A stretch of DNA of 64,000 nt, taken from positions 74,521,465-74,585,464 of the forward strand of contig NC_044572.1 of assembly GCF_901933205.1 (NCBI RefSeq). Reading direction: 5' to 3'. Source of the stretch: Camarhynchus parvulus (taxonomy: Eukaryota > Chordata > Aves > Passeriformes > Thraupidae). Made by a program: the position numbers and the translations under genes. The notes under the pieces are model-generated. The model was given only the letters and a program-made list of their open reading frames with translations, had not been told where the DNA came from and made no database searches. Positions 135 through 54,012 of the stretch are shown here, piece by piece (within the stretch, counting starts at the first letter, position 1; the number at the start of each line of letters is the position of its first letter).

Positions 135-425
135 TCAGGCCACTGTACACCTTGAACCACAATTGAAAATATTTTTTGTTGAGCCTCTCCCCCAAGTTCT
201 TCTCTGTGCCAGCGTCTCTTTTAGTTCGGCCACAGGGTCTTCCGCTGAGCTGCGTGATGGTTTGTCGTGGCCTTCAGGAAACGAGGTGCTCAGGTTGTGG
301 GGGTGTCTAAGGATTTGGTCCTGCAAAATAAACTTCACAAGTTTAATTAGTTTAGCCCTGAAGGTCCGGTTTAACTGATTTAACCGGGCACCATTTAATT
401 TTGCCATCTTTCTTAACTGCTGCAT
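135..425 (-). pseudogene. Possible env 5' fragment overlapping the integrase end
   Basis: A 96-codon frame that begins inside the last codons of the integrase reading frame and continues past its stop in a different phase. This is where class II retroviruses start env. The N-terminal part is basic with a short hydrophobic patch (around LIKLVKFIL), the middle is polar, and the frame stops without any surface-subunit features such as cysteine clusters or glycosylation sites. No furin site, fusion peptide or transmembrane segment is present. It may be only a truncated leader, or a chance frame. Position is the main evidence. Confidence 0.35.
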
Positions 426-2592
426 ACCCTCGCCCTGTGAGTATTAGCCTCCAACCCCGTTCCCATTCCCCCAGCTCATTTTTAATTGAGACCTGCGGGC
501 CTTCCTCTATCACTTTGGTGGCCCAGTGCTTCTGGGCAGGGCTTTTTATTTCTTCTCCCCTAGGGAATTGGTTTAATGCCAGCAGGGTGGTCGCCAGGAT
601 ACGCGCTTGGTCTTTTTGGGGAATGGAATTGGTAAAACCCTCTGTTTTCGCCAGTACCTCTAGCTTAGTTTTTAAAGTTTTGTTTGCCTGTTCAACAATG
701 GCTTGTCCTGTGCTGTTATATGGGATGCCATGTAGTAAGGTGATGCTCCATTTTGAAACGAAGGCTTGAATTGATTTTGATGTAACATTTGTGCCATTGT
801 CAGTTTTAATTTGCCTTGGTATACCCAGCCATGCCATAGCTGTTAACCAGTGCTGGATGGTTGCCTTGGAGTCTGTTTTTTGATGCTGTGTGGCTACAAT
901 CATCCCACTGTAGGTATCCACGGTTACTGCAAGCCATGCTTGAGGTCTCAGTAGTGGACATAATGTGAAATCTGTCTGCCATATCTCGGCGGCTTTGAGA
1001 CCTCTGGGGTTGACACCGCTGGACCACAGTGGTGATTTTTGGCAATAAGGACATGAGGCGACTACGTGCTTTGCATCAGAGGTTGAAATCCCACACCTTT
1101 TCGCGAGTGCTTTCGCCCGAATATGAAGGGATTCATGGAGTTGCCGGGCATCTCTTAGGGTCCACAGCCCTCTCGCAGCGGCATCTGCCTTGTCATTACC
1201 GATCTGAAAGAATCCCTTGACCGGGTTGTGGCTGTTGACATGGATGATGGATACAGTGCCTTCTCGCGAACTGAGTGCCTCCTCCAGCATCATTGCCACC
1301 ATGGACACTGACACACCGGGTCCAGCCATAGCTAGGCAGAGCCTGGCTACAAATATAGAGTCTGTTACGATGTTAAGGTGCTCATTAAGGAACAGACCAC
1401 ATGCCAGTGCCACGGCAGCTGCTTCAAGATGCTGGACTGAAAGTGTGGGATCGGTTGTTTTGACGCAATACCAGTGTTCTCCTGACTGCCATACCACCGC
1501 TGCGGTGGAGGTCAATGAAGATGCGTCTGTGAACACCGTGGGTCCTGCTTGCAGCCGGTCAATTACCTTTGGTGGGAGGTCAATGTCAACAATTGCAAGG
1601 AACTGCGTCCAAGGGGGCTTTGCTGCATAACGAATTTCTCCTCCAAATCCAGCAAGGGCTATGGCAAGGTGCTCTAATATTGTTGATGATTGTGAAGAAA
1701 TCTGCTTGCGAAAGGGCAGATATATCCTGGCGGGTTCAATGCCCAAATGTCTCAGGGCGAGTTTCCTGCCTTTCATAATAAGGCTGCTGAGGCACTCAAC
1801 TCCCGGGGAAAAGGCGCATGATGGTTTTCCCAACACAACCCATTGTATTGGCCGGGCTTTATCAGGGGGTCCTTGGGCTAGTGCTCCTACTCCTCCTTTT
1901 TTTGTAAAGTGGACATACAAGTCGACCTTTCTCTCTCGCTTGTACATATCATCCTCTCTTCCCCCACCGACCGTGCCCACGTCCGAGCTCCCCCCGCTCT
2001 GGGGTTCACCACCCTGCGGTGCGCAAGGCAGAGGCCTCACCCAGGCACCATCAGGCCCTGAAGTAACAGCTTCCCCCCGCGCCTCTGGGCTAACGACTTC
2101 ACTCCGTGCCTCTGAATTAACGGCCGCGCTTCTCACCTCCTCTAGCAGTTCGTCCCACAATGAATGCTTTTTTCCTGTAGCCTGCGCACCTGGGCTCGGG
2201 GGCCGTGAAGGGCGTCCCCGCAGCGGCAGCTCTCCATACTCTGCCACCTCATGATTGGCTGCGGTCTGTCCGGCCATCCCTTCACCCAGCTGGGGCCCCG
2301 CCTTCATGAAGTCCTGCGGGGCTTTCCATTTTTCCCGTTCCGGGCAAACCTTTTGCGGAGCCCGCACAACTTTTCCCCATGATCTAAGGCTTTGCCCCGA
2401 GCCCAAGGACATCACCTCCTCAGCTAAAGCCTGGGTGCACTTGTCCCACACATCCAGACGGAGTAACTCCTCCGGGTGCCCAATTACCCCCATATGCAGG
2501 AGCCTCGATGCAATGAAGATAAAGTCTCCCGCCTTGCAGTCCAACCCCCACTGCCTATGAACCCCTAATACGACCTTGGCGCGAGACTGCAT
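352..2592 (-). CDS. Fused Gag-like / RT-connection / RNase H / integrase ORF of an endogenous retrovirus
   Basis: 746 codons without a stop. Residues ~1-75 look like a helical matrix-type Gag N-terminus, and ~76-215 are a Pro/Gly/Ser-rich linker. From ~225-345 the sequence resembles the reverse transcriptase connection region. RNase H spans ~346-480, with its acidic set at D356 (FTDAS), E390, D411 (VTDS) and D467. Integrase spans ~481-746: zinc-binding H486, H490, C514 and C517; catalytic D541, D598 and E634, with exactly 35 residues between the last two; and a C-terminal W/GRGY domain. Capsid, nucleocapsid, protease and the polymerase core with its active-site motif are absent, so a deletion has joined gag to late pol in frame, probably between residues ~210 and 232. 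An in-frame stop lies ten codons before the chosen Met. The Gag label for the N-terminus is by position and general character; RNase H and integrase are certain. It cannot make a full replication apparatus alone, and expression is unknown. Confidence 0.88.
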   Translation of the reverse strand: MQSRAKVVLGVHRQWGLDCKAGDFIFIASRLLHMGVIGHPEELLRLDVWDKCTQALAEEVMSLGSGQSLRSWGKVVRAPQKVCPEREKWKAPQDFMKAGPQLGEGMAGQTAANHEVAEYGELPLRGRPSRPPSPGAQATGKKHSLWDELLEEVRSAAVNSEARSEVVSPEARGEAVTSGPDGAWVRPLPCAPQGGEPQSGGSSDVGTVGGGREDDMYKRERKVDLYVHFTKKGGVGALAQGPPDKARPIQWVVLGKPSCAFSPGVECLSSLIMKGRKLALRHLGIEPARIYLPFRKQISSQSSTILEHLAIALAGFGGEIRYAAKPPWTQFLAIVDIDLPPKVIDRLQAGPTVFTDASSLTSTAAVVWQSGEHWYCVKTTDPTLSVQHLEAAAVALACGLFLNEHLNIVTDSIFVARLCLAMAGPGVSVSMVAMMLEEALSSREGTVSIIHVNSHNPVKGFFQIGNDKADAAARGLWTLRDARQLHESLHIRAKALAKRCGISTSDAKHVVASCPYCQKSPLWSSGVNPRGLKAAEIWQTDFTLCPLLRPQAWLAVTVDTYSGMIVATQHQKTDSKATIQHWLTAMAWLGIPRQIKTDNGTNVTSKSIQAFVSKWSITLLHGIPYNSTGQAIVEQANKTLKTKLEVLAKTEGFTNSIPQKDQARILATTLLALNQFPRGEEIKSPAQKHWATKVIEEGPQVSIKNELGEWERGWRLILTGRGYAAVKKDGKIKWCPVKSVKPDLQG

Positions 2593-2599
2593 TTCCCAT
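2555..2599 (-). pseudogene. Likely original gag start (Met-Gly, myristoylation-type), out of frame
   Basis: A start codon 7 bases upstream of the long frame opens a 14-codon reading frame beginning Met-Gly-Asn-Ala-Val-Ser. Glycine at position 2 and serine at position 6 fit the N-myristoylation pattern common to class II Gag proteins. The frame then stops at 2555-2557, while the neighbouring frame runs on as the 746-codon ORF. The simplest reading is that gag once began here and a small insertion or deletion moved the start out of register. The frame and residues are seen; the history is inferred. Confidence 0.5.
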
Positions 2600-2639
2600 G
2601 CGCCAGTCCGGGAGCGTTCTTACAGATAGCATAATTGTT

Positions 2640-4929
2640 TTTCCATTCCTGTTCCAGGTCAGATATTTTCCCATGTGGTGCTATTTGCATCTCTTGCTGT
2701 ATAGGATGCTTTAGAATTTCTGCTTAGATCAAGCAAGTGAGACTTAGGACTTAAAGAAAACTGTATGGAAGAGCAAGTGGAGACAGAGCTACACTCTGGG
2801 GCTGCCTGAATGGCTGTAAATGCTAATGGTGTAGGCATCTGAATTGCACCCCTGACAACCAAATGCATGATAAGTTGTTAGCTGTTAACAGGAATGGTCA
2901 AAGTTGATTGTGAACAACAATTTTCAGGAATTTGCATAATAATTCTTCTTGCTCCCTCTGCCCTTTTTATCTCTGTTTTCTCTGCAGTAAGAACTTCACC
3001 TTTCCCTGACACCAATATATATTTTTCTTTACCTTTGTCAAAAGAAAAATAGGACTTTAGATATAAAACCTAATGAAAACTAGTAGACTGTAGGCAGCTA
3101 ATTTGAGAGTCCAGTTTCTGCCTCTGGAAGGACAAGTTACAATTTGTATTAATCTTAACTCTACATAAGTTTTCAAAAGCTTGCATTTTGGTGAAGTTGA
3201 TCCTCTGTAAGGGCAAAAGGTATCTGGCAACAGCATCAAAAAAAAAAAAAAACCTCCTCAGAGGCTTAACAATAAATTTACATGTGATAAATTATATAGA
3301 TTTTTGAAAGGACAGCTTTTAATTTTGAGGTCTCTGGTAACATCAGGCATGGAGCAGAGGGTGTTGGAACAGACAATGTCTAAAGGTAATTATCACTAAA
3401 GTCATCTAGTGATAATTACTGAAAACAGTGGTCATCGAGCAGAAAAGACCATCACAGCAACATTACACTTTCCCATTCTCTCTACCTTTAACATCTTGCC
3501 CTCATGGCACTATTTTCTTCAGTTTTCTCTCCTATTTTGTGCTTTCATAAAGCTTTGCATTCTTCTCCAAAGATCATGAAACTATATTATACAGCATCAT
3601 TTGATGTAGAAAGAATCAAACAGTACATCAAACTCTGTCATCCCTTTCAGCTCTATTCTGTCATTAGAAACAAAACCATGTAGAAATTTACTCAAAAGGT
3701 TATACTTTCAACTATTATAAATATAAAATACCTTTACACTGTATGACAGCATGAGGAAGTCAGCTTTACTTATAAACGAATTATACTTTTTAACTCTCTG
3801 ATGCAAAAAAATACTGAAGATCTTTAGCAGTATCACAAAATATTTCTCATTTGAGATTTTATTTTAACAAAAGGCAATAAATAAAACAAAATTAAGTGAT
3901 GCATTTTCATACAGGAACTCCTTCCATGCAGTAGATTATTCTAAATTATCACAAACACCTTCTCAGTCTTACAGTTTATATTTCTTCTAAAAGTTTATAA
4001 AAGTAGGATCTGGAAAAAATAATACAAGGGTTGAAAAGTCCTAGTTTTCTTTGCATTTGATGTAAAGATAACCATAAAAAAAATTATAATCTTGAACAGT
4101 TTACTCAGATATGCCTCCTTCCCAAACGCTGAAATGCTTCCTAAAAAAATGAGACAATTGCTTCTACAGAAAGACTATAGAACAATTGAGAATCCAAGGA
4201 ATACTTGCTAAAAACCACCAAAACCCATAAAAGGAATAAAAGAAAATATTTTGTGAGCTTTCATTATAAATGTTTCATTACTTGTTGCCTGCTTCATGAC
4301 TAATGTGGATATAGGGCTGTTGAGTCAATTTATGATTTTAGAGGAAGAACTGATTAGAAACAATGAGGATGAAATGACCATTAATGACTGTTAACTGCTG
4401 AAGAAATTATTATGATTGACACACCCAAGGCTACTTAATAAAACAGATTTCCTGCCTTTTTAGATAGTTCTGAAAGTATTAGGTCCCTACAAGATTTGAC
4501 CCTCACTATATGTGCGACAGAACGAGGTTATTATTTCCTCTGGATAACAGTATCCAAGGGAAGGCCGACAGTTTTGGAAAATAAATAGATCCTTGAAGAC
4601 TGAAGAGCTCTAGAGCAGACTGTCCCTCCAAGTTTCTTGACTGAAGAACATTAGTAATTCTTCCAAGCACCCTCCATAATTGCTCATTACTTAAAACGAA
4701 CTGACGAAATGAGGAAAGAAGTGCTAAAATTTTTGAAAGGGAAAGGTGTTAAAGTAAGTATCCTAGCTGCTGCTAATTGAAGCCATAATTCTATGGATGT
4801 AGGATCCATGTACTGGGTTCCACTACAATTCAGGAATTTCCTGAATCAGATGTTTAGAACTGAGGAGGCTATAACTAGAAGGAATTCCTATTGATTAATA
4901 TTTTTCAAATACTTTTTCCTGAATGTTTA
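2640..4929. other. AT-rich non-coding DNA, no feature recognised
   Basis: No open frame here has domain content. Seen: an A-run near 3239-3253 and many short homopolymers. An ATTTGCATAAT-like POU motif lies near 2930. No LTR or primer-binding site is visible next to the provirus. Confidence 0.6.
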
Positions 4930-5005
4930 TTTTTGTCCACTGTTATAGATGGAATGCTGGGCTAAATGGGTCTTGTTCTGATCCAGTACAACAGGTCCTA
5001 CTAAG
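4930..5005 (+). repeat. Old CR1-type LINE 3' tail
   Basis: The stretch resembles the end of ancient amniote CR1 elements: a 'gctgggctaaatggg' segment followed by 'tctgatccagtac'. It is diverged and lacks a clear terminal microsatellite. Assigned by recognition of the family tail, not by alignment. Confidence 0.5.
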
Positions 5006-6168
5006 CAGGTGGATTTTTAGGAATAGGATCTTTAAACAGTAAGGACTTTTCAACCCTAATTTTAACAAAACAGGCATTTTGTCATAGTATTTTTTGCATT
5101 TTGCTGAAATCCACAGGAAAGAAATTGCTTTACTGTTATCCCCTACTTGGTATGCTAATAAATAAATAATACATTAGGCAGTGAGTGCTCTCTCAATCTC
5201 AGTGACTGTTGGTAAAATAAGAGGTGGCCTGCAATCAGGAAGGTATTTTTAGCTGAAGGAACTGCAGCATGAAATGTGATGTTTTAGCTCTAAGATGTCA
5301 GAAGCAAATCCTTATTAATTCTGACCTCTCTATATTATGCATCTTTCTGATCAACTCTCTGGTAGTGCTGCTCTGTCAGACAATGGAGCTTGGGATTCAG
5401 AGTAAATAGACCTGCCAGAGCACATTTCCACTGTGATTGGATCAGAGCCTGGTTGCCATTCGACAGTTTCTTCACCATAAAATTCTTCTCAGTATCTCCT
5501 CAGCCTTGCAAAAAGAAGTTAAACATATCCTGCTATGCAGCAATATTGCAGCTTTACTTGTTGCTTAATGTTTTCACTGATGCTTTCTTCATCATCCACT
5601 GGGCACAAACACTTTAGTATTTTAAACCATCTGTTAAATTAACATACTTTTAAGAAAAGCATGCTTTCATAGCTCCTGTTCAACTTCCTTTACAAAGTGC
5701 ACATTTGCAAGTTGTGTAGTGTCTATGGTGTCTACTCTGAAAGGCCTACCAATTAAGATTTGTGAATATTGAACAATTTTGTTCTTAAAATTCTGTAGAT
5801 ATGAAATTAAGATTACATTCTTAAAACAGAAATGCTGCCACTTTCTCTTTCAGCCTCAGAGAAATTTTATATTCAAGCTTAAGGACCATTTTGCATTTAA
5901 AAGAGACGTATGTGGAGGTTATTCATAATGCCATCCTTCTCAAAAAAACAGTCAGAATTAATTTGTTTGGTCTCCAAGACAACAGCCATAGCTTTCTTAT
6001 GCCAAACAAAGGTTCTAATTAATGTCATCTAGGTATCTGCAGGCATCATTGATGATCTATGGTCTTTTGTGTCTGATCTATCTGAAAAATGCCTGTGTTC
6101 CATAAGCAAAGGGATGATATGTCTATGTTGTGAAAGTAAGCGAACAGATGAAAGTGAGAATAATTAGG
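5006..6168. other. AT-rich non-coding DNA, no feature recognised
   Basis: No convincing gene. The 75-codon frame at 5390-5617 has no recognised domain, and I could not see convincing splice sites around it. Confidence 0.55.
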
Positions 6169-6276
6169 AGTCAGGAGTGTAAAGGACCCATTTTTTCAAA
6201 AGGCAATAGTGATTTTTTTTTGTCCTCTCCATACTTCTGTTGATAACATGAAAATGGGTCCTTTACACTCCTGACT
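6169..6276. repeat. Perfect 26-bp inverted repeat with 56-nt loop
   Basis: The arm 6169-6194 (starts agtcaggagtgt) is the exact reverse complement of 6251-6276 (ends cactcctgact). Pairing stops abruptly at both arm ends. The loop, 6195-6250, includes a run of T. Perfect arms in otherwise diverged DNA point to a recent template-switch or inverted duplication. A stable hairpin could form in DNA or RNA. Confidence 0.9.
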
Positions 6277-11584: not shown

Positions 11585-11743
11585 AGTCAAGGATGCCCCA
11601 TCCCTGGAAGTGTTCAAGGCCAGGCTGGATGGGGCTCTGAGCAATTTGGTCCAGTGAAAATTGTCTCTGTCCATGGCAGAGGGATTAGAATTAGATGACC
11701 TTTAACATCCCTTCCAACCCAAACTATTCTATGATTCTATGAT
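11585..11743 (+). repeat. CR1 LINE 3' end, 5'-truncated
   Basis: The coding tail of CR1 ORF2 is recognisable (catccctggaagtgttcaag, the SLEVFK-type segment). It runs through the 3' UTR (cccttccaacccaaa) to the diagnostic terminal octamer repeat (attctatgattctatgat, 11726-11743). Only the last ~160 bp are present, typical of 5' truncation. Confidence 0.9.
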
Positions 11744-12658: not shown

Positions 12659-13505
12659 ATGAGAGGGCGGTCAGGCCACAGCAACTCCTTTTTGCCGATC
12701 CTTTCTCCACACGCTTTTCCCTGTTCCAGCTCGGACCATTCCCGGGGCCGCAGGCCAGCCCAGCCCGGCCGGGCTCTCTCCCAGGCCTCAGGGCCATCCC
12801 TGCCGGGTCTCTCCTGCCCCCGGCCCTGCTCCCGCTGTCCCCTCGGGGCTCGCAGGGCTGTTTCTCGCTCGCTTCCCCTGGCTCAGCCCTGGCTCTGGGC
12901 AGCGTTTTGCCCTCCCTTGCCCAGGCTTTCCCCAGGGCTGAGGGGCTCAGCCGTGCCCTGCGCTGGGGCCGCTGCAGCCGCTGGCACCGCCTGGGGCCGG
13001 CCCGGGCAGCCCCGGCACAGCCCTGGTACAGCCCCGGCACCGCCCCGGCACCGCCCCGGCACAGCCCCGGTACAGCCCTGGCACAGCCCCGGCACAGCCC
13101 CGGCACAGCCCCGGCACAGCCCCGGTACAGCCCCGGCACCGCCCCGGCACCGCCCCGGCACCGCCCCGGCACCGCCCCGGTACCGCCCCGGCACGGCCCC
13201 GGCACGGCCTCGGCACAGCCCCGGCACAGCCCCGGCACAGCCCCGGTACAGCCCGGGCACAGCCCCGGCACAGCCCCGGTACAGCCCCGGTACAGCCCCG
13301 GTACAGCCCGGTACAGCCCGGGCACAGCCCCGGCACGGCCTCGGCACAGCCCCGGCACGGCCCCGGCACGGCCCCGGCACAGCCCCGGCGCTGCCGCCAC
13401 CACCGGGGCAGGGAGAGCCCAGTTGAGAGGCCTGAAATCATGAAGATTCCATCAGCTATCGCTTTCTTCCTCAGCTCTGTGCTGTGTTTCTTCCCCATTG
13501 TACGG
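12659..13505. other. GC-rich island with CpGs, possible inserted segment
   Basis: The only strongly GC-rich block in the window, with abrupt edges. It carries many CpG and SmaI-like CCCGGG-type sites and contains the 11-bp minisatellite. The flanking DNA shows a near direct repeat: CACACAGGAATGGGA at 12644-12658 and CACACAGGAAGGGA at 13506-13519, one base shorter. This could be a target-site duplication around an insertion, or chance. It could alternatively be a CpG-island promoter, but I see no exon with a clear donor. Long frames on both strands are low-complexity artefacts. Confidence 0.55.
13010..13395. repeat. 11-bp GC-rich minisatellite (ACAGCCCCGGC unit), G4-prone
   Basis: About 35 tandem units of ACAGCCCCGGC with variants (accgccccggc, acggccccggc, tacagccccgg) and a few 1-bp-shorter copies near 13300. 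Because 11 is not a multiple of three, each frame cycles through all phases, and no unit contains a stop. That explains the long Pro/Gly/Ala/Arg-rich frames on both strands. On the minus strand GGGG runs are spaced by 7 nt (CTGTGCC), which meets the usual G-quadruplex pattern throughout. Confidence 0.92.
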
Positions 13506-33300: not shown

Positions 33301-34410
33301 TCAAACTACTTGAATTAAGAAGCTGAGCTACTTAAATTCTTCCAGTGGTCTCACCAGATCCTTTATAACTGTGCAGAAGAAATTAGGTTATCCTAATTAA
33401 ACCCATTATATGTATAAAAGAATAATGCTTTTAGTCATGCATATGCAGTAGCTAAGTAAATTGTAATATATTTATCATTTTAATAACTAGCTTTTTATTT
33501 CTCTAAATATGCAAATAAGATAGCTGAACTGTCACCACCTCAATTCTCCAGCTACAGATGGTATTAGTGTTGTCAGATCAGCAGGTTAGGAACTTCTCCC
33601 TCACCCCACCAGTGACCTACAACTGACCTGCAGTAAATTGCTAAATCAATGTGTATTTTATTGCAGGTTCACTGGAGATCCCTATCCTTAGGCAAAACCT
33701 TTACACACCATAAATATATTCTGAGTACCTATTTCTTCTTGTCTTTGAACTGACTACATCTGTAGGAGATAATGCATGGGCTGAAGAGAAGTTGTATTTG
33801 AACCCCTCTCCAGCTGCTGACAGCTCGGGCATGGCAGCACAAACCTCCTGGTGGTGTTGCTGGTGAATTGTTGCAGGCTGTGCTGTCGCTGCAGCTGCAC
33901 TGACAACAGCCTCGTGCCTGGTTTAAATGTAGCTGAGACACAGGGACCTGAGGTGCATACATAACATTAATTGCACTGTGTGTGTCTGCAAGGCAAGACT
34001 GACACACCAATGGCCACCCACCCGCAAGATGATTTTATATATCCTCTGCCAGTGCTTTAGAAGAGCTGCTGCTGTCAACATTTAAGTGATGTTTAACAGG
34101 GAAAGGGCAGGCAGAGTACCACTGTGTCCAGTCAGGGCTCAGTGCCAAAAGGCAGGAGTTAGCCGAGCACAGAGCCCATGGCCATTATTAACAATTATCA
34201 TGTTGTGTTTATGGGTCTGCAGGATTCTTATGGCAGTATGTCTGAGCTGATGAGCCAAGGAAAGGGCAGATACCTGGCTTCTCCAGTGAAGTTCATTCTT
34301 CCTTGGTCAATCTCGAGTGCTTAACAGCATGAAAGCCTGATCACGCATGTGTTTGTTTTGCTATGCATCATCCTGACTGCAGCATTGACTAGTAAAATTA
34401 TTAGAGTTCA
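30317..34410. other. AT-rich non-coding DNA, no gene recognised
   Basis: Contains a GT/G-rich patch at 32506-32580 and a POU-like TTTGCATAAT at 31993-32002. 33529-34340 has more balanced composition than its surroundings. A 93-codon minus frame there (33729-34010) is Cys-rich but has no recognised fold. Confidence 0.5.
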
Positions 34411-34815
34411 CAGAATTATGGAGGAGTCTGGATTGGAAGGCACCTTAAAGGTCACCCGTTTCTAACCCCTCTCCCATGGACAGGGACACCTTCCACCAGA
34501 CTAGGTTGCTCAGAGCTCCATGCAACCTAGCCTTGAACACTTCCAGGGATGGATAGGGTGTTCATAACTTCCATGGGCAACCTGTTCCAGTGCCCCACCA
34601 TCCTCACAGTAAAAAAAAAAAAATCGATCTAATCTAAACCTACTCTTTCAATTTGAAGCCATTCTCCCTTGTGCTGTGACTACATGCCCTTGTAAACAGT
34701 GTCTCTACATGTTGCAGGTTCCCTTCCAGTACTGAAAGGCCTGAAGTAGGTCACTCCTAAGCCTTCTCTTTCCCCTGAACAAACCCAATCCTTTAAGCCT
34801 TTCCTCTTAGAGGGA
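34411..34815 (-). repeat. CR1 LINE 3' portion, 5'-truncated
   Basis: On the plus strand it begins with the antisense 3' end (cagaattatggaggagtctg, then ggaaggcaccttaaaggtca). It continues through 'gacagggacaccttccacca' and 'cagtgccccaccatcctcac' into the end of ORF2. A 13-A run sits at about 34611-34623. Moderately diverged. Confidence 0.9.
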
Positions 34816-48189: not shown

Positions 48190-48555
48190 TTCACAGAAAC
48201 AATTAGGTTGGAAAACACCTCTGAGATCATCAAATCCAACTTATGACCTAACATTGTTATGTCAGTAGACCATGGCACTATGTGCCATGGCAAATCTTTC
48301 CTTAAGTATTTCCAGGGATGGTGACTCCAGCACCACCCCAGGAAGACCATTTCAAAATCTAGTCACCTTTTCTGTGAAGAATTTTTTCCTAATGTCCTAC
48401 CTAATCCTCCCATGGTACAGTTTAAGCCTGTGTCCTCTTGTCCTGTCACTGGTTGCCTGGGAGAAGAGACCAACTTCCACCTGGCTACAACCACCTTTCA
48501 CGTAGCTCCAGAGAGTGATAAGGTCACTCCTGAGCCTCCTCTTCTCCAAGCTAAA
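48190..48555 (-). repeat. CR1 LINE, 3' half (ORF2 C-terminus and 3' UTR), interrupted copy
   Basis: The minus strand encodes the conserved CR1 C-terminal stretch ([31 protein letters not shown]) up to a stop at 48397. The frame then shifts into SPSLEILKE-like codons and the 3' UTR, with ggttggaaaacacctctgag on the plus strand marking the end. It continues at 49815 on the other side of an LTR insertion. Dead copy. Confidence 0.92.
48551..48555. repeat. Target-site duplication, left copy (CTAAA)
   Basis: CTAAA directly precedes the LTR start TGTCGTGG. The same five bases follow the LTR end at 49810-49814. Confidence 0.85.
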
Positions 48556-49809
48556 TGTCGTGGGTTTACAGGAAGCAGGTTTTCTGGGAATGGAGTGGCC
48601 AGAGGCCAATAGGTGTCCAGATTTTAAATTGACACCAGGCTTGGCCACTGAGGGTGGATGCGCCTCTGAGAACACAGGGGTTAGAAGCAGAGCACTCCCT
48701 TGGGCTCTCTCTTTGATTTCCGGCCAGCAAAGAGGCAAGGCCTCCCCTGCCCGGCTTCGAGCTGGGTGGGGGAGAGGAACACCTGCAGCCCGGCAGAGGT
48801 AGGCCTGACCCCTCAGGATGGAAGGGTGGTGGGGGCACCAGGAGGCGTTGGGCAGCCCCCCCCCAGGAGAGACAGAGGGAGAGAGGCCCCGAGAAGATTT
48901 GGGCAGCCCCCCACTAGAAGATGAGAGAGAGAAAGCTGCTACGGGCCTGTGGCCTTGAAGTGATATCAGCCTGTGAAGAAGGAGGGGGAAGGGGGGAGTG
49001 CAGCAGGGAAGGAACCTGGCTGAGTGCAGAAGTTTGTTAACCCCTTTATGGACAATGAAGACCTCACAGAGCATTTGGACCTTTCCCGGAGGGGAGATGG
49101 AGTGAATGATAAAGAGGAAATGGGCAAGAGAATGACAGTCAGAGCAGTGAGTGAGGCTGGGAGAGTAAAGAAGAGGCCGGAAAGAGATGATGGAGTAGCT
49201 GGTTGCTGGACTCTTTTTGGTACAGCCATGGACAGAACCATGCTTCCTCGCGACACAGAGGCTGCATGCAGGGGGGAGGCGATGGCTCAGAACTGAGAGG
49301 GTTCAGTTTTGGAGACCACCCGGCCCCAGGGGGTAGACAAGTATGGGGGGGACAAGAGGTCCCGAGATGAGAGAAAACTGTGCTTTTTTTGGAACTGGTC
49401 AAAGCACCCTTAAAAGGATAACCCTTGAAGCAGCTCTGTTCCTTGTCCAGTGGTGAGAGCGCTGGGCATGCAAGGAAGAGGTCACCATGGCCCCAAGAAG
49501 GACTCCTCTCCTCTTGATGGACTGAAATTGAGTATTTACAGGGTGATGGATGGAGAGTTGAAATTTGGAAGATGTATTGGAAATGTGGTGGGGGGAGGAG
49601 GAAATGCTTTTTGTGGAGTTTTCATTTTCCAGGTGTGTGTGTGCGTGTGTGTGTGTGTGTTTTTTTTTTCCTTTTGTAGTTTAGTTAATAAACTTTTTTT
49701 TCTAAGGCAGAGGCCTGCTTTGCTTATTTCCTGGTCACATCTCACAGCAAACACCAGGGAAGTATATTTTCATGGGGCACTGGCATTGTGCCAATGTCAA
49801 ACCATGACA
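48556..49809 (+). mobile_element. Full-length solo LTR (1254 bp) inserted in a CR1
   Basis: Starts TGTCGTGG and ends CCATGACA, giving imperfect inverted termini (TGTCGTGG against TGTCATGG), and is bracketed by CTAAA. The plus strand has an AATAAA signal at 49687-49692 followed by ~117 bp of U5-like sequence, and a GT microsatellite (49633-49660) just upstream. A TATA-like 'ttaaaagg' lies near 49411. Composition is more GC-rich than the surroundings. There is no internal retroviral coding sequence, so it most likely arose by LTR-LTR recombination. The family is probably ERVL-like, judged by its termini. Confidence 0.88.
49633..49660. repeat. GT dinucleotide microsatellite
   Basis: (gt)n with one gc interruption, followed by a T-run, inside the solo LTR. 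Confidence 0.9.
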
Positions 49810-50600: not shown

Positions 50601-53578
50601 TTGTATGTAAATGTAATAAGCTTAGGTGCATGTTTCTTGTCCTCAAGGAACTCTGCTGTCTACAGAATCATTACAGGTCTTTTCTGTTCATCCTATATTT
50701 GGAAATTTAATATTCTATATTCTATTTGTATTTTGTTCAATTTCTAAGCAACATTTTTATAGAGGACACAGCAACCTTATCCACTATTTCCAAAATTGTA
50801 CTAGGAGAAGAATAGGTGCAGAAAATACTTATAGGTCATGAAAGGAAAGATAGAGCATTACTTTTTTAAAACTGAAGCAGGTATTGGATGGATTTTCATG
50901 TCAGTCTTTCATACAGATTAATTCCATGCTAGACCAATGAGAATTGTGACATATATTAAGTTTTACTGAAAATTGGTAGTTCCAAATAAAACTGTTTCAG
51001 TGCTTAACCTAATTTCTGAGAATGGGAAAAATATGTAAATTTCTTAATGATTTTTGATAGTGTTATATCTTTAGCAGTATTCAATTTATACAAAACCAAT
51101 GATATTCAAATTTGCAAAGTTACTTTACAGGGCTCTACTAGCATGGTAAAATATTCACAGAATTTTGTGTTCATCATGAGATGAATCATGCAACAGAAGT
51201 AAGAGCAACTGACTCACTGTGATTATGATTTGGAGCATATTTAAGTATTTGTTCACTTGATCATGTGTATAATCCAGTTAATTAAAATTATACTACTAAT
51301 TAGGATATGTGTGTTTAAATATTTGTATGCTTTTGTTCCACAATAAAAGAAAATCTCATATAAAAAGATGGAGAATAGTGCTGAAATGGTTGAAGTTATT
51401 TATGGATGTTTGTGCAAAATACAACAAATAATGGGATCAGGAGAACTTTTTGACATACAGCCCTTTCTGTGTTGCTGTGACATAAATCACTTGTAACACC
51501 TGTGGAGTTGTCTCACTGAAGGGAATGAATTTGCACTGCTGTGAAATTACTGAAGACATAGAGAGAATAAAGCCCTATTCCTGTCATTGAAATATCTGGT
51601 AAGTGTGGAGCATACTTGTTATTTGATTTGCCCAGCCCTAATAACAAGTCCCATCTGTTTTGTGAGGCCTGTGAGTCATAGTGCCTCCTGCATAAGTCAT
51701 CTCTCTGAGTATCTTTCATTTTTATTTTTAACATAAAAAGAAGCCAAAGCAATAAAATGTAATCAATATACTTTGTAATTCTTGTTTATTAGAATTGCCT
51801 GGTAATAATTTTTATATCATAACAATGCAGTAATTTCTCATAAGTTTATTATATTGAAAGAGTAATCTGATAAAGTGCACAAATTGCCATTAGACCTTCA
51901 GAGTACAGTGTCACTTTTTTTCTCTCTATAAAATACACCAGATTAATGTCTGCTTACCCTTTTCTATTGTTCAGTTGTGAATATAGTTAAGAAAATCTCT
52001 GCTGCAGGAATGATGCTTCTCTGCAGTGACTAGATGTTTATTTTATTGGTATCTTTATCTCTAGGCAGATTGTTATTTGTCAGATGTTTGTCATTCTGTA
52101 GTAACAAAACCTGGTGACTCATCCAACAAAGAAACTTTCAAGTAGATCCCAAACTCTTTTGCTGAAACTGAAAAAACAGTAATTTAATGCATTTAAATTC
52201 CAGCAAGGGATCCAGGGACTTCCTTGCATATACCATTGCCCTTGAAATGATAGCAGCAAACCTAACTAAAGGCCACCTACATAGCCATGTAACCAGAAAA
52301 GGCAGAAGGAGGCAGATTCTGTACATTAAATCCACTTTGAATAAATACAATTTCCACCTGTAATGTTAATGGAGCAGAAAGAGTAAAGATTTTTTTCTGA
52401 GATAGAAAAACAGAGTCCCAAAACAGGCTGTATGATGGAAGAGGGGGGCAATACACAAGCAGAAAGGAAAAGGCTCCTTCATGTTGTCCTCCTTTTTCCT
52501 TCAAGCAAAATATTTTCTCGTACACCAGTGGCAAGAAGAATAGGCAATATGCAACTAATATTTTTTAGTATGATAATTTAAAAACTGCAAGAACACAGTC
52601 TTGTGTTTTCAAAATACCTCTTTTAACTGACATTTTTCATGTCATGTTTTTGGCAGGTTTTGGGTTTTTTTAAGAATGCAAGCATTTCTGTAGCTTAGGG
52701 CAGATATTACATGTTTTCAGTGTTAATGTATGCTTATATATATGTTTCCTGTAGACTTCTGTAATGTAAAGAATAAATATAAAAACCCTGTCCCATTTAT
52801 CTAATTAATAGGGTGACTTCCCATTTGTTGCCAAGAATTTCTATTTGAGGCAAAATTTGTTTCTATCTTCCATTTGTCTTTTTTATGAGAAAACAGATTG
52901 TGGAATTCTATGGGTAGGGTTTTCAGAGTGTTTTCTTACAATCTCTGAAGCTTTCATCTCAAGGTAAAATTCCTCAGGTTTGAATTCTGCCAAAATTCAG
53001 AGCCTATTTTGCTGTTTTCTTTTGAAGGAAAAAAAAATCAGTATTTTTGCTATCTTTTGTGAGCTGTGATGGATCCTCAGTGAGCTTAGCTTATGTGTGG
53101 TCAAAAGCACAGAGAACATCATGATAAACAGGAAATACTTTCTCTGGGAAGAAGTAGGCAATGACTGTTGAAGTAGCACCTGCCTTTGCATGCCTGTCAG
53201 AGAGCCCAAAGATGCTTTTTCTGCCAGAGAATTCAAATGCAAGAAAGAACGAAGGTAAGAAATATATTTCTTGCCTCAGTGCAATAATCTGTCATTGGAA
53301 TAGCTGATGTTGGAGCTGATGGAGAAGAAAGAGAGGAAAAAGTGCCCTAAGTATGCATGCATCTTTGAGGATATTTATGTGTGCACGTGTGGAGAATTGG
53401 CTAATGAGGGAGTAAACAGGTTTACATTCATACATAGTTTGATAGAGGTGAAACAGATGGGCTGCTGAGATTTACCAGTAGGAGATTTCCTGTATAAACC
53501 TTTAATACCATTTATGGTATTAAAAATATGTGGCTGTTATATTTTCCTGTGTTGCTGCACAGTTCTAACATTGTTTTT
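50601..53578. other. AT-rich non-coding DNA, no gene recognised
   Basis: No domain-bearing frame and no recognised repeat. Ordinary intergenic or intronic sequence. Confidence 0.5.
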
Positions 53579-53705
53579 CATAGAATCATAGAATGGTTTG
53601 AGTTGTGAGGGGCTATAAAGATCATCTAGTTCCAACCCCCCTGCAGAGGGTAGAGACACCTTTCACAAGACCTGGTTGCCCACCCAGCATTAGAGAGTTC
53701 AGTAC
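53579..53705 (-). repeat. CR1 LINE 3' end fragment
   Basis: Begins catagaatcatagaatgg (antisense of the CR1 terminal octamers), then 'gatcatctagttccaaccc' and 'ggtagagacacctttcacaa'. About 125 bp. Confidence 0.92.
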
Positions 53706-53773: not shown

Positions 53774-54012
53774 AAAGAGGGTAAATTTAGATTGGACATA
53801 AGGACAAAGGGCTTTTTATGATGGTGGTAGTGAGAGACTGGAACAGGTTGTCTGGAGCTGTGGATACCCCATCACTGGAAGTGTTCAAGATCAGATTGCT
53901 TAGGACTTTGAGCAACCTGATAGGTATTGGTAAATGTCCCTATTCCTGGCAAGCAGGTAGACTACATGGTCTTTACAAGTCCCTTCTAACCCAAATCATT
54001 CAATAATCTAAA
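53774..54012 (+). repeat. CR1 LINE 3' end fragment, opposite orientation
   Basis: Encodes the CR1 ORF2 tail (VRDWNRLSGAVDTPSLEVFK) followed by 3' UTR (cccttctaacccaaatcatt). It lies head-to-head with the minus copy at 53579-53705, about 70 bp apart. Confidence 0.9.

Follow-up and report, generated by a model that had tools for sequence, protein, structure and literature searches.

The stretch of DNA analysed here (the window) comprises 64,000 nucleotides (nt) of the Camarhynchus parvulus genome (NCBI RefSeq assembly GCF_901933205.1, contig NC_044572.1, positions 74,521,465 to 74,585,464), and close to its beginning lies, on the minus strand, an endogenous retrovirus (ERV) in which the start of gag is joined directly to the end of pol. 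The resulting open reading frame (ORF; positions 352-2592 of the window, to which all positions refer unless a locus is given) runs uninterrupted for 746 codons, compared with a longest ORF of 241 codons across 500 base shuffles of positions 1-2700. Residues 1-222 (1927-2592) constitute the gag part, whereas residues 223-746 (352-1926) constitute the pol part, assigned by Pfam and a structure-database match to the end (connection) of reverse transcriptase (RT), RNase H and integrase. In the product Pfam recognised RNase_H at residues 352-474 (1171-1539), the zinc-binding domain Integrase_Zn at 482-519 (1036-1149) and the integrase catalytic core, rve, at 534-627 (712-993), while Retro_M at residues 29-78 stayed below its cut-off (18.9 vs 25 bits). 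Judging from Pfam and the alignments, capsid, nucleocapsid, protease and the RT core are all absent. The ORF and domain searches thus bear out a preliminary description of this DNA, made from the letters alone, which had reported a single 746-codon frame skipping these parts and the polymerase core. Residues D541, D598 and E634, the last beyond the rve match, can be read from the window sequence, and we take them to be the integrase core residues. The integrase is nearest to that of the Rous sarcoma virus (RSV) type (7jn3, E 3.4e-88), the next group following at a distance (3jca, 6e-39).

The N-terminal region by itself retrieved nothing at E <= 0.001 in a protein search, and Gag relatives were retrieved once residues 1-600 of protein P0039 served as the query. 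Residues 1 to ~214 align with bird Gag proteins at 30-45% identity, and several of these proteins carry the Gag_p24 capsid domain. A 16-sequence profile of the N-terminus matched the RSV matrix protein (5kz9) at E 1e-9 over profile positions 1-93. Moreover, an AlphaFold prediction for residues 1-131 (mean predicted local distance difference test score 71, with block means of 76-95 over residues 1-80 and below 55 thereafter) gave RSV matrix as all four top Foldseek matches (best E 2.3e-3, none below 1e-3). That is, the N-terminal part of the fusion is an alpharetrovirus-like Gag matrix followed by a linker, and both profile and fold place at its start the M-domain matrix found at the N-terminus of retroviral Gag. 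The Gag-like N-terminus proposed beforehand is upheld by the bird Gag alignment as well as by the RSV profile and fold matches; the possibility that the N-terminal ~215 residues align to a non-gag region was also checked, and residues 1 to ~214 align to Gag.

A protein search in which 7,994 candidates were scored gave 77 relatives, whose named sources are all birds except for the opossum (P0075). The best are 83-84% identical and come from Hirundo rustica, and a 20-sequence protein tree places the window element with copies from Hirundo and the zebra finch (support 89). The element is an alpharetrovirus-like (avian class II, 'ERVK') endogenous retrovirus; high ERVK activity has been described in Passeriformes (PMC11009239). 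A search of public viral contig collections found no DNA of the relatives, and six bacterial loci from a scan of public genome contigs, at only 23-36% identity, were set aside.

Further copies with the same junction

When the host genome was searched with a 201-nt query covering the gag/pol junction, ten matches were obtained, four spanning the junction, three covering the pol side only and three the gag side only. The spanning copies are the window element itself (100%), L026 on C878 (95%), L027 on C831 (93%) and L028 on C5 (92%), and the alignment places the junction identically in all four. L027 and L028 match the window element at 95% over its whole length and carry long terminal repeat (LTR) sequence beyond the end of the window copy; L028 is bounded by two LTRs, contains a primer-binding site and is flanked on each side by the 6-bp target-site duplication CAGTAG. 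The 3′ flanks of the window copy, L027 and L028 are mutually unrelated. By contrast, the 3′ flanks of L026 and L027 are 98.5% identical over 200 nt, so these two represent one insertion in duplicate, and the four copies therefore correspond to three insertion sites. L026 is without positions 218-1259, where the whole integrase lies, and its match ends at 2441. With an RNase H-integrase query, 19 genomic matches were found: all four at >=95% identity carry the deletion, two at 93% span the integrase end only, and the closest other match over the entire query is 86% identical. Two loci, L030 and L031, hold gag and pol including the parts that the window element is missing.

The junction lies between codons 222 and 223 (1927/1926), within the range expected beforehand (residues 210-232, ~1900-1965). 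The pol breakpoint is at 1927, and the assignment of the final ~20 nt of the gag part (1928-1950) is not firm, as the gag DNA homology of the relatives stops at 1950-1955. Between the two breakpoints L030 holds ~3.5 kb and L031 ~2.9 kb. With the breakpoint marked by a slash, the gag relatives read AAAGAGG/GGAAAGA, the pol relatives CCGG/TCGA and the deleted copies GAGAGG/TCGA, such that the gag and pol sides overlap by 2 nt, GG (1926-1927). Neither a GT following the gag side nor an AG preceding the pol side is present in L029-L034 as aligned, these relatives being 75-86% alike, so that the parental bases may differ. Comparison with the fuller relatives, which had been suggested in order to look for splice sites or microhomology at the breakpoints, has thus yielded a short overlap and no splice sites. 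The deletion most likely arose through RT template switching at this short overlap, intramolecular template switching by RT being a known origin of deletions (PMC3187697). That the two parts are joined in phase had been singled out as notable; the junction does keep the frame, but this would happen once in three times by chance, and frame retention was rejected as evidence of selection.

Probable origin and spread of the deleted element

The window element is very probably one copy of a small family of non-autonomous ERVs that spread with the proteins of fuller relatives. Because capsid, nucleocapsid, protease and the RT core are absent from the protein retained, the element would not be able to replicate on its own. 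The starting point would have been an alpharetrovirus-like relative, from which most of env had probably already gone, and ~3 kb would then have been lost between the gag linker and the RT connection, most likely by a template switch during reverse transcription. The deleted form would have kept its LTRs, primer-binding site and 5′ leader, so that its RNA could have been packaged, reverse-transcribed and integrated elsewhere by the Gag and Pol of the fuller relatives. With the junction falling in frame by chance, the copies could have made a fusion of matrix, RNase H and integrase. In the window copy the 5′ LTR has been lost and the frame is still open. Mobilisation in trans is inferred from the missing genes and from finding this junction at separate sites, one of which has a target-site duplication; relatives carrying gag and pol are present in the genome. 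Of the origins envisaged in the preliminary description, a non-autonomous lineage mobilised by relatives is thus the one favoured by four copies at three insertion sites, whereas the two others, a retrocopied spliced RNA and a one-off deletion, fare poorly. A few observations weigh against the interpretation as a mobilised family: the insertion sites number only three, L026 and L027 being duplicates; a target-site duplication is seen in L028 only, the window copy having none and L027 starting inside its 5′ LTR at the start of the contig; no fuller relative closer than 86% is present among the 19 RNase H-integrase matches of the host genome; and, at 75-86% likeness, the relatives do not reveal the parental breakpoint bases exactly.

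A retrocopy of a spliced viral RNA would account for a junction that is both clean and in frame, yet it is highly improbable: canonical splicing is not supported because the breakpoints in the relatives are without GT and AG, the env acceptor remains unspliced behind the integrase (that is, the env intron is retained), and the copies have LTRs and, in L028, a target-site duplication. An equally slight chance is given to a one-off deletion or an assembly error at the window locus. The window copy alone being without a 5′ LTR would fit such an accident, but the presence of the same junction in the C5, C831 and C878 copies refutes it, unless these are assembly duplicates.

Possible selection on the fusion frame

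The other two explanations accept the deletion and differ in what the fusion protein would have done afterwards, for which private changes were counted in three copies (window, L027 and L028; L026 was left out). Since the deletion, the matrix and linker accumulated 34 non-synonymous and 14 synonymous changes and RNase H 23 and 10, both as under neutrality, whereas the integrase shows 18 and 18 (two stops uncounted) for an expected non-synonymous share of 0.70 (P 0.009; 0.014 under CpG weighting; ~0.026 after correction for three regions; 0.039 against the remaining regions). Furthermore, pairwise ratios of non-synonymous to synonymous substitution rates (dN/dS) are 0.34-0.41 for the integrase and 0.8-1.3 for matrix and RNase H. 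This suggests that the integrase may have stayed useful after the deletion, or that it recombined with relatives that were themselves under selection, in both cases as read from 36 changes in three copies. The family could therefore also be one in which the fusion worked in cis, a matrix-tethered integrase helping its own RNA to be integrated or packaged and being selected for it, as precedent from the mouse would allow (IAP 1Delta1, see below; PMC6466679, PMC7411935). We consider such a role conceivable but rather unlikely, given the small number of copies and integrase changes, the neutral appearance of matrix and RNase H, the recombination that could yield the same pattern, and the disabling changes in the copies themselves: L028 has three frameshifting indels and two stops, and L027 has one 1-bp deletion that shifts the frame.

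The window copy, on the other hand, has none of these six disabling changes despite having the most private substitutions (53 vs 43 and 23; P 0.03), a point in favour of its domestication as a host gene for a matrix-RNase H-integrase protein. The RNase H and integrase motif residues, with the roles we assume for them, are likewise present. Nevertheless, domestication is very improbable: on the window branch alone, matrix (18 non-synonymous to 9 synonymous) and RNase H (10 to 2) look neutral, the 5′ LTR has been lost, and 12 private changes fall at sites invariant in 14 relatives, compared with 19 and 10 in two other copies from birds. Purifying selection on the whole protein, as a domesticated gene would display, is not what the counts for matrix and linker and for RNase H indicate.

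Comparison with known elements

By mechanism, the closest known case appears to be the mouse intracisternal A-particle (IAP) element 1Delta1, described as a class II ERV in which a 1.9 kb gag-pol deletion created one fusion ORF and env was lost; it is non-autonomous, multicopy and moved by fuller relatives, and its fusion protein has been reported to help in cis (PMC6466679, PMC7411935). The window family resembles IAP 1Delta1, as described there, in the fusion of gag and pol into one ORF by deletion, in the loss of env, in having several insertions of the same junction and in being non-autonomous and very probably moved by fuller relatives. It differs in belonging to the alpharetrovirus-like group, in its breakpoints and in the extent of the loss (~3 kb vs 1.9 kb), as well as in being without capsid, nucleocapsid, protease and RT core and in consisting of few, old copies. 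The window element is not an IAP by descent, judging by its closeness to RSV-type bird proteins, although no direct comparison with IAP sequences was made; cis help, reported for IAP 1Delta1, is for the window fusion a possibility only.

Among bird elements, ART-CH of the chicken reportedly has a deleted structure too. Involvement of a helper is assumed for chicken EAV-HP (PMC4607243). Like the window element, both are bird elements on the alpharetrovirus side that have lost genes; they belong to another sequence group, and a matrix-RNase H-integrase frame is not among the features reported for them in the accounts at hand. Moreover, searches that covered open-licence papers only turned up no report of a matrix-RNase H-integrase retroviral lineage and no well-studied avian element of such a build. 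An antbird gene model (P0063, Willisornis vidua) has, as in the window element, a matrix and linker followed by the RNase H end and integrase, but it starts at the RNase H end and its junction may stem from gene prediction. Within the host genome, L057 joins matrix and linker to pol, but from residue 458 and in another frame. Because their breakpoints differ from that of the window element, the junctions of L057 and P0063 are judged to be events separate from the window deletion. L057 (C16:34507500-34516999) extends from LTR to LTR over ~3.4 kb (~2450-5829) and looks like a separate deletion of a similar sort.

If such a lineage existed, selected for its integrase and with the fusion acting in cis on its own RNA or DNA while all other functions were borrowed, birds would have an equivalent of IAP 1Delta1 built on a much more reduced protein. 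Most newly arising insertion mutations by IAP in mice are attributed to deleted forms that borrow proteins (PMC6466679, PMC7411935). As relatives with the missing part, breakpoints, copies and sister lineages are present in one genome, the cis benefit of a gag-pol fusion could be tested by comparison. With captured cellular mRNA found in the same group (see below), these elements would also form a compact record of retroviral deletion, borrowing and gene capture.

Remaining parts of the element and age of the copies

Upstream of the fusion frame, only the last piece of the 5′ leader is left (2593-2620, aligned with the leader of L027 and L028). Retroviral homology of the window copy stops at 2620, the 5′ LTR and primer-binding site being lost, and the observed/expected CpG ratio is 0.99 at the leader end (3 CpG in 58 nt) vs 0.11 beyond 2650. 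Behind the 5′ LTR of L027 and L028 comes the primer-binding site TGGTGCCGAAACCC, which we take to be that for tRNA-Phe, whereas avian leukosis virus presumably uses tRNA-Trp. L028 thus combines paired LTRs with a primer-binding site and a target-site duplication; the window copy has a 3′ LTR only.

Downstream of the frame, the pol tail continues with three stop codons inside (298-351, by translation against relatives) and contains a putative splice acceptor of env (AG at 321-322; tttattttgcag), at which the gene models of relatives appear to join. An env leader remnant follows at 243-320 (shuffles were as good in 0 of 100 cases for P0044 or P0045 and in 8 of 100 for P0095), and to it is joined, through an internal env deletion, a short remnant of the env transmembrane part at 198-233 (for three relatives, 0, 3 and 4 of 100 shuffles did as well). 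Further on, another transmembrane piece matched no better than shuffles. The genome alignment assigns 1-197 to the remainder of the 3′ part of the element, which continues, past a purine run, to a 3′ LTR lying beyond the window edge at ~C2:74520734-74520964. Most of env has thus been deleted from the window element as well; neither this loss nor the missing 5′ LTR nor the 3′ LTR had been mentioned in the preliminary description. Since all that is seen of env in L030 and L031 is its transmembrane end (L029 and L058 retain more), env was probably lost before the gag-pol deletion, as in IAP.

The LTRs of L027 diverge by 0.042 (Kimura two-parameter distance, 5/123 sites, its 5′ LTR being cut by the contig start) and those of L028 by 0.087 (16/195 sites). 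Substitutions in birds accumulate at 2-3e-9 per site per year, which would place the insertion of these two copies roughly 7-22 million years ago; the window copy has no LTR pair.

Sister lineages and other features of the window

Other deleted elements of the group share a junction at position 614. In L032-L034, gag up to the nucleocapsid (from residue 144 in L033) is followed by a foreign piece and then by the integrase C-terminus from window 614. Two further elements, L054 (C31:27291500-27300999) and L055 (C663:177000-186499), have LTRs at both ends, and their 3′ part (-730 to 614) shares 95% identity with the window element; ahead of the junction, between matrix and the integrase C-terminus, they contain part of adducin 1, recognised in a PDB search (Adducin 1, E 1.9e-62). 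Because the corresponding host pieces are spread over 8.6 kb (C4:9634657-9643303) and are joined in L055, the insert is a captured, spliced adducin-1 mRNA; L055 is without ~0.5 kb present in L054. Capture of host mRNA by ERVs is known from crocodilians (PMC4299795).

A second foreign piece is located just ahead of the window-614 junction in L032, L033 and L034. In L034 (MTSASTKVGEIFSAA..., ~2943-3340, minus strand) it continues the gag reading frame after the zinc knuckles; its best match in a PDB search was a SANT domain (E 0.045), and we presume a resemblance to the chromatin protein BAP18, which no tool confirmed. L054 keeps 63 nt of the end of this second piece behind adducin, as if adducin had joined such an element. 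Among matches to 360-614, the five on C31, C663, C20, C2 and C3 start at exactly one base, a second shared junction, and the one at C1:5439961 starts 14 nt after the junction and has a different sequence before it.

The host genome is rich in integrase cores of other ERV groups, often on C31, several of them in frames of >1,000 codons (among 150 scored of 602 candidates). The eight best-scoring integrase loci of the genome (L007-L014) gave no blastn match to the window element at E 1e-5.

Elsewhere in the window, Rfam gave no match at gathering thresholds anywhere, and a 225-codon ORF on the minus strand (48397-49074) had no Pfam match over the cut-off. Related dispersed repeats occur at 11591-11742, 34408-34552, 53578-53682 and 53862-53915; we take these repeats and the 225-codon ORF to resemble ends of CR1-type long interspersed elements and the end of the CR1 polymerase, respectively. 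A GC-rich minisatellite with an 11-nt unit (12932-13400) contains long chance ORFs on both strands, and positions 6169-6276 form a perfect inverted repeat with 26-nt arms and a 56-nt spacer.
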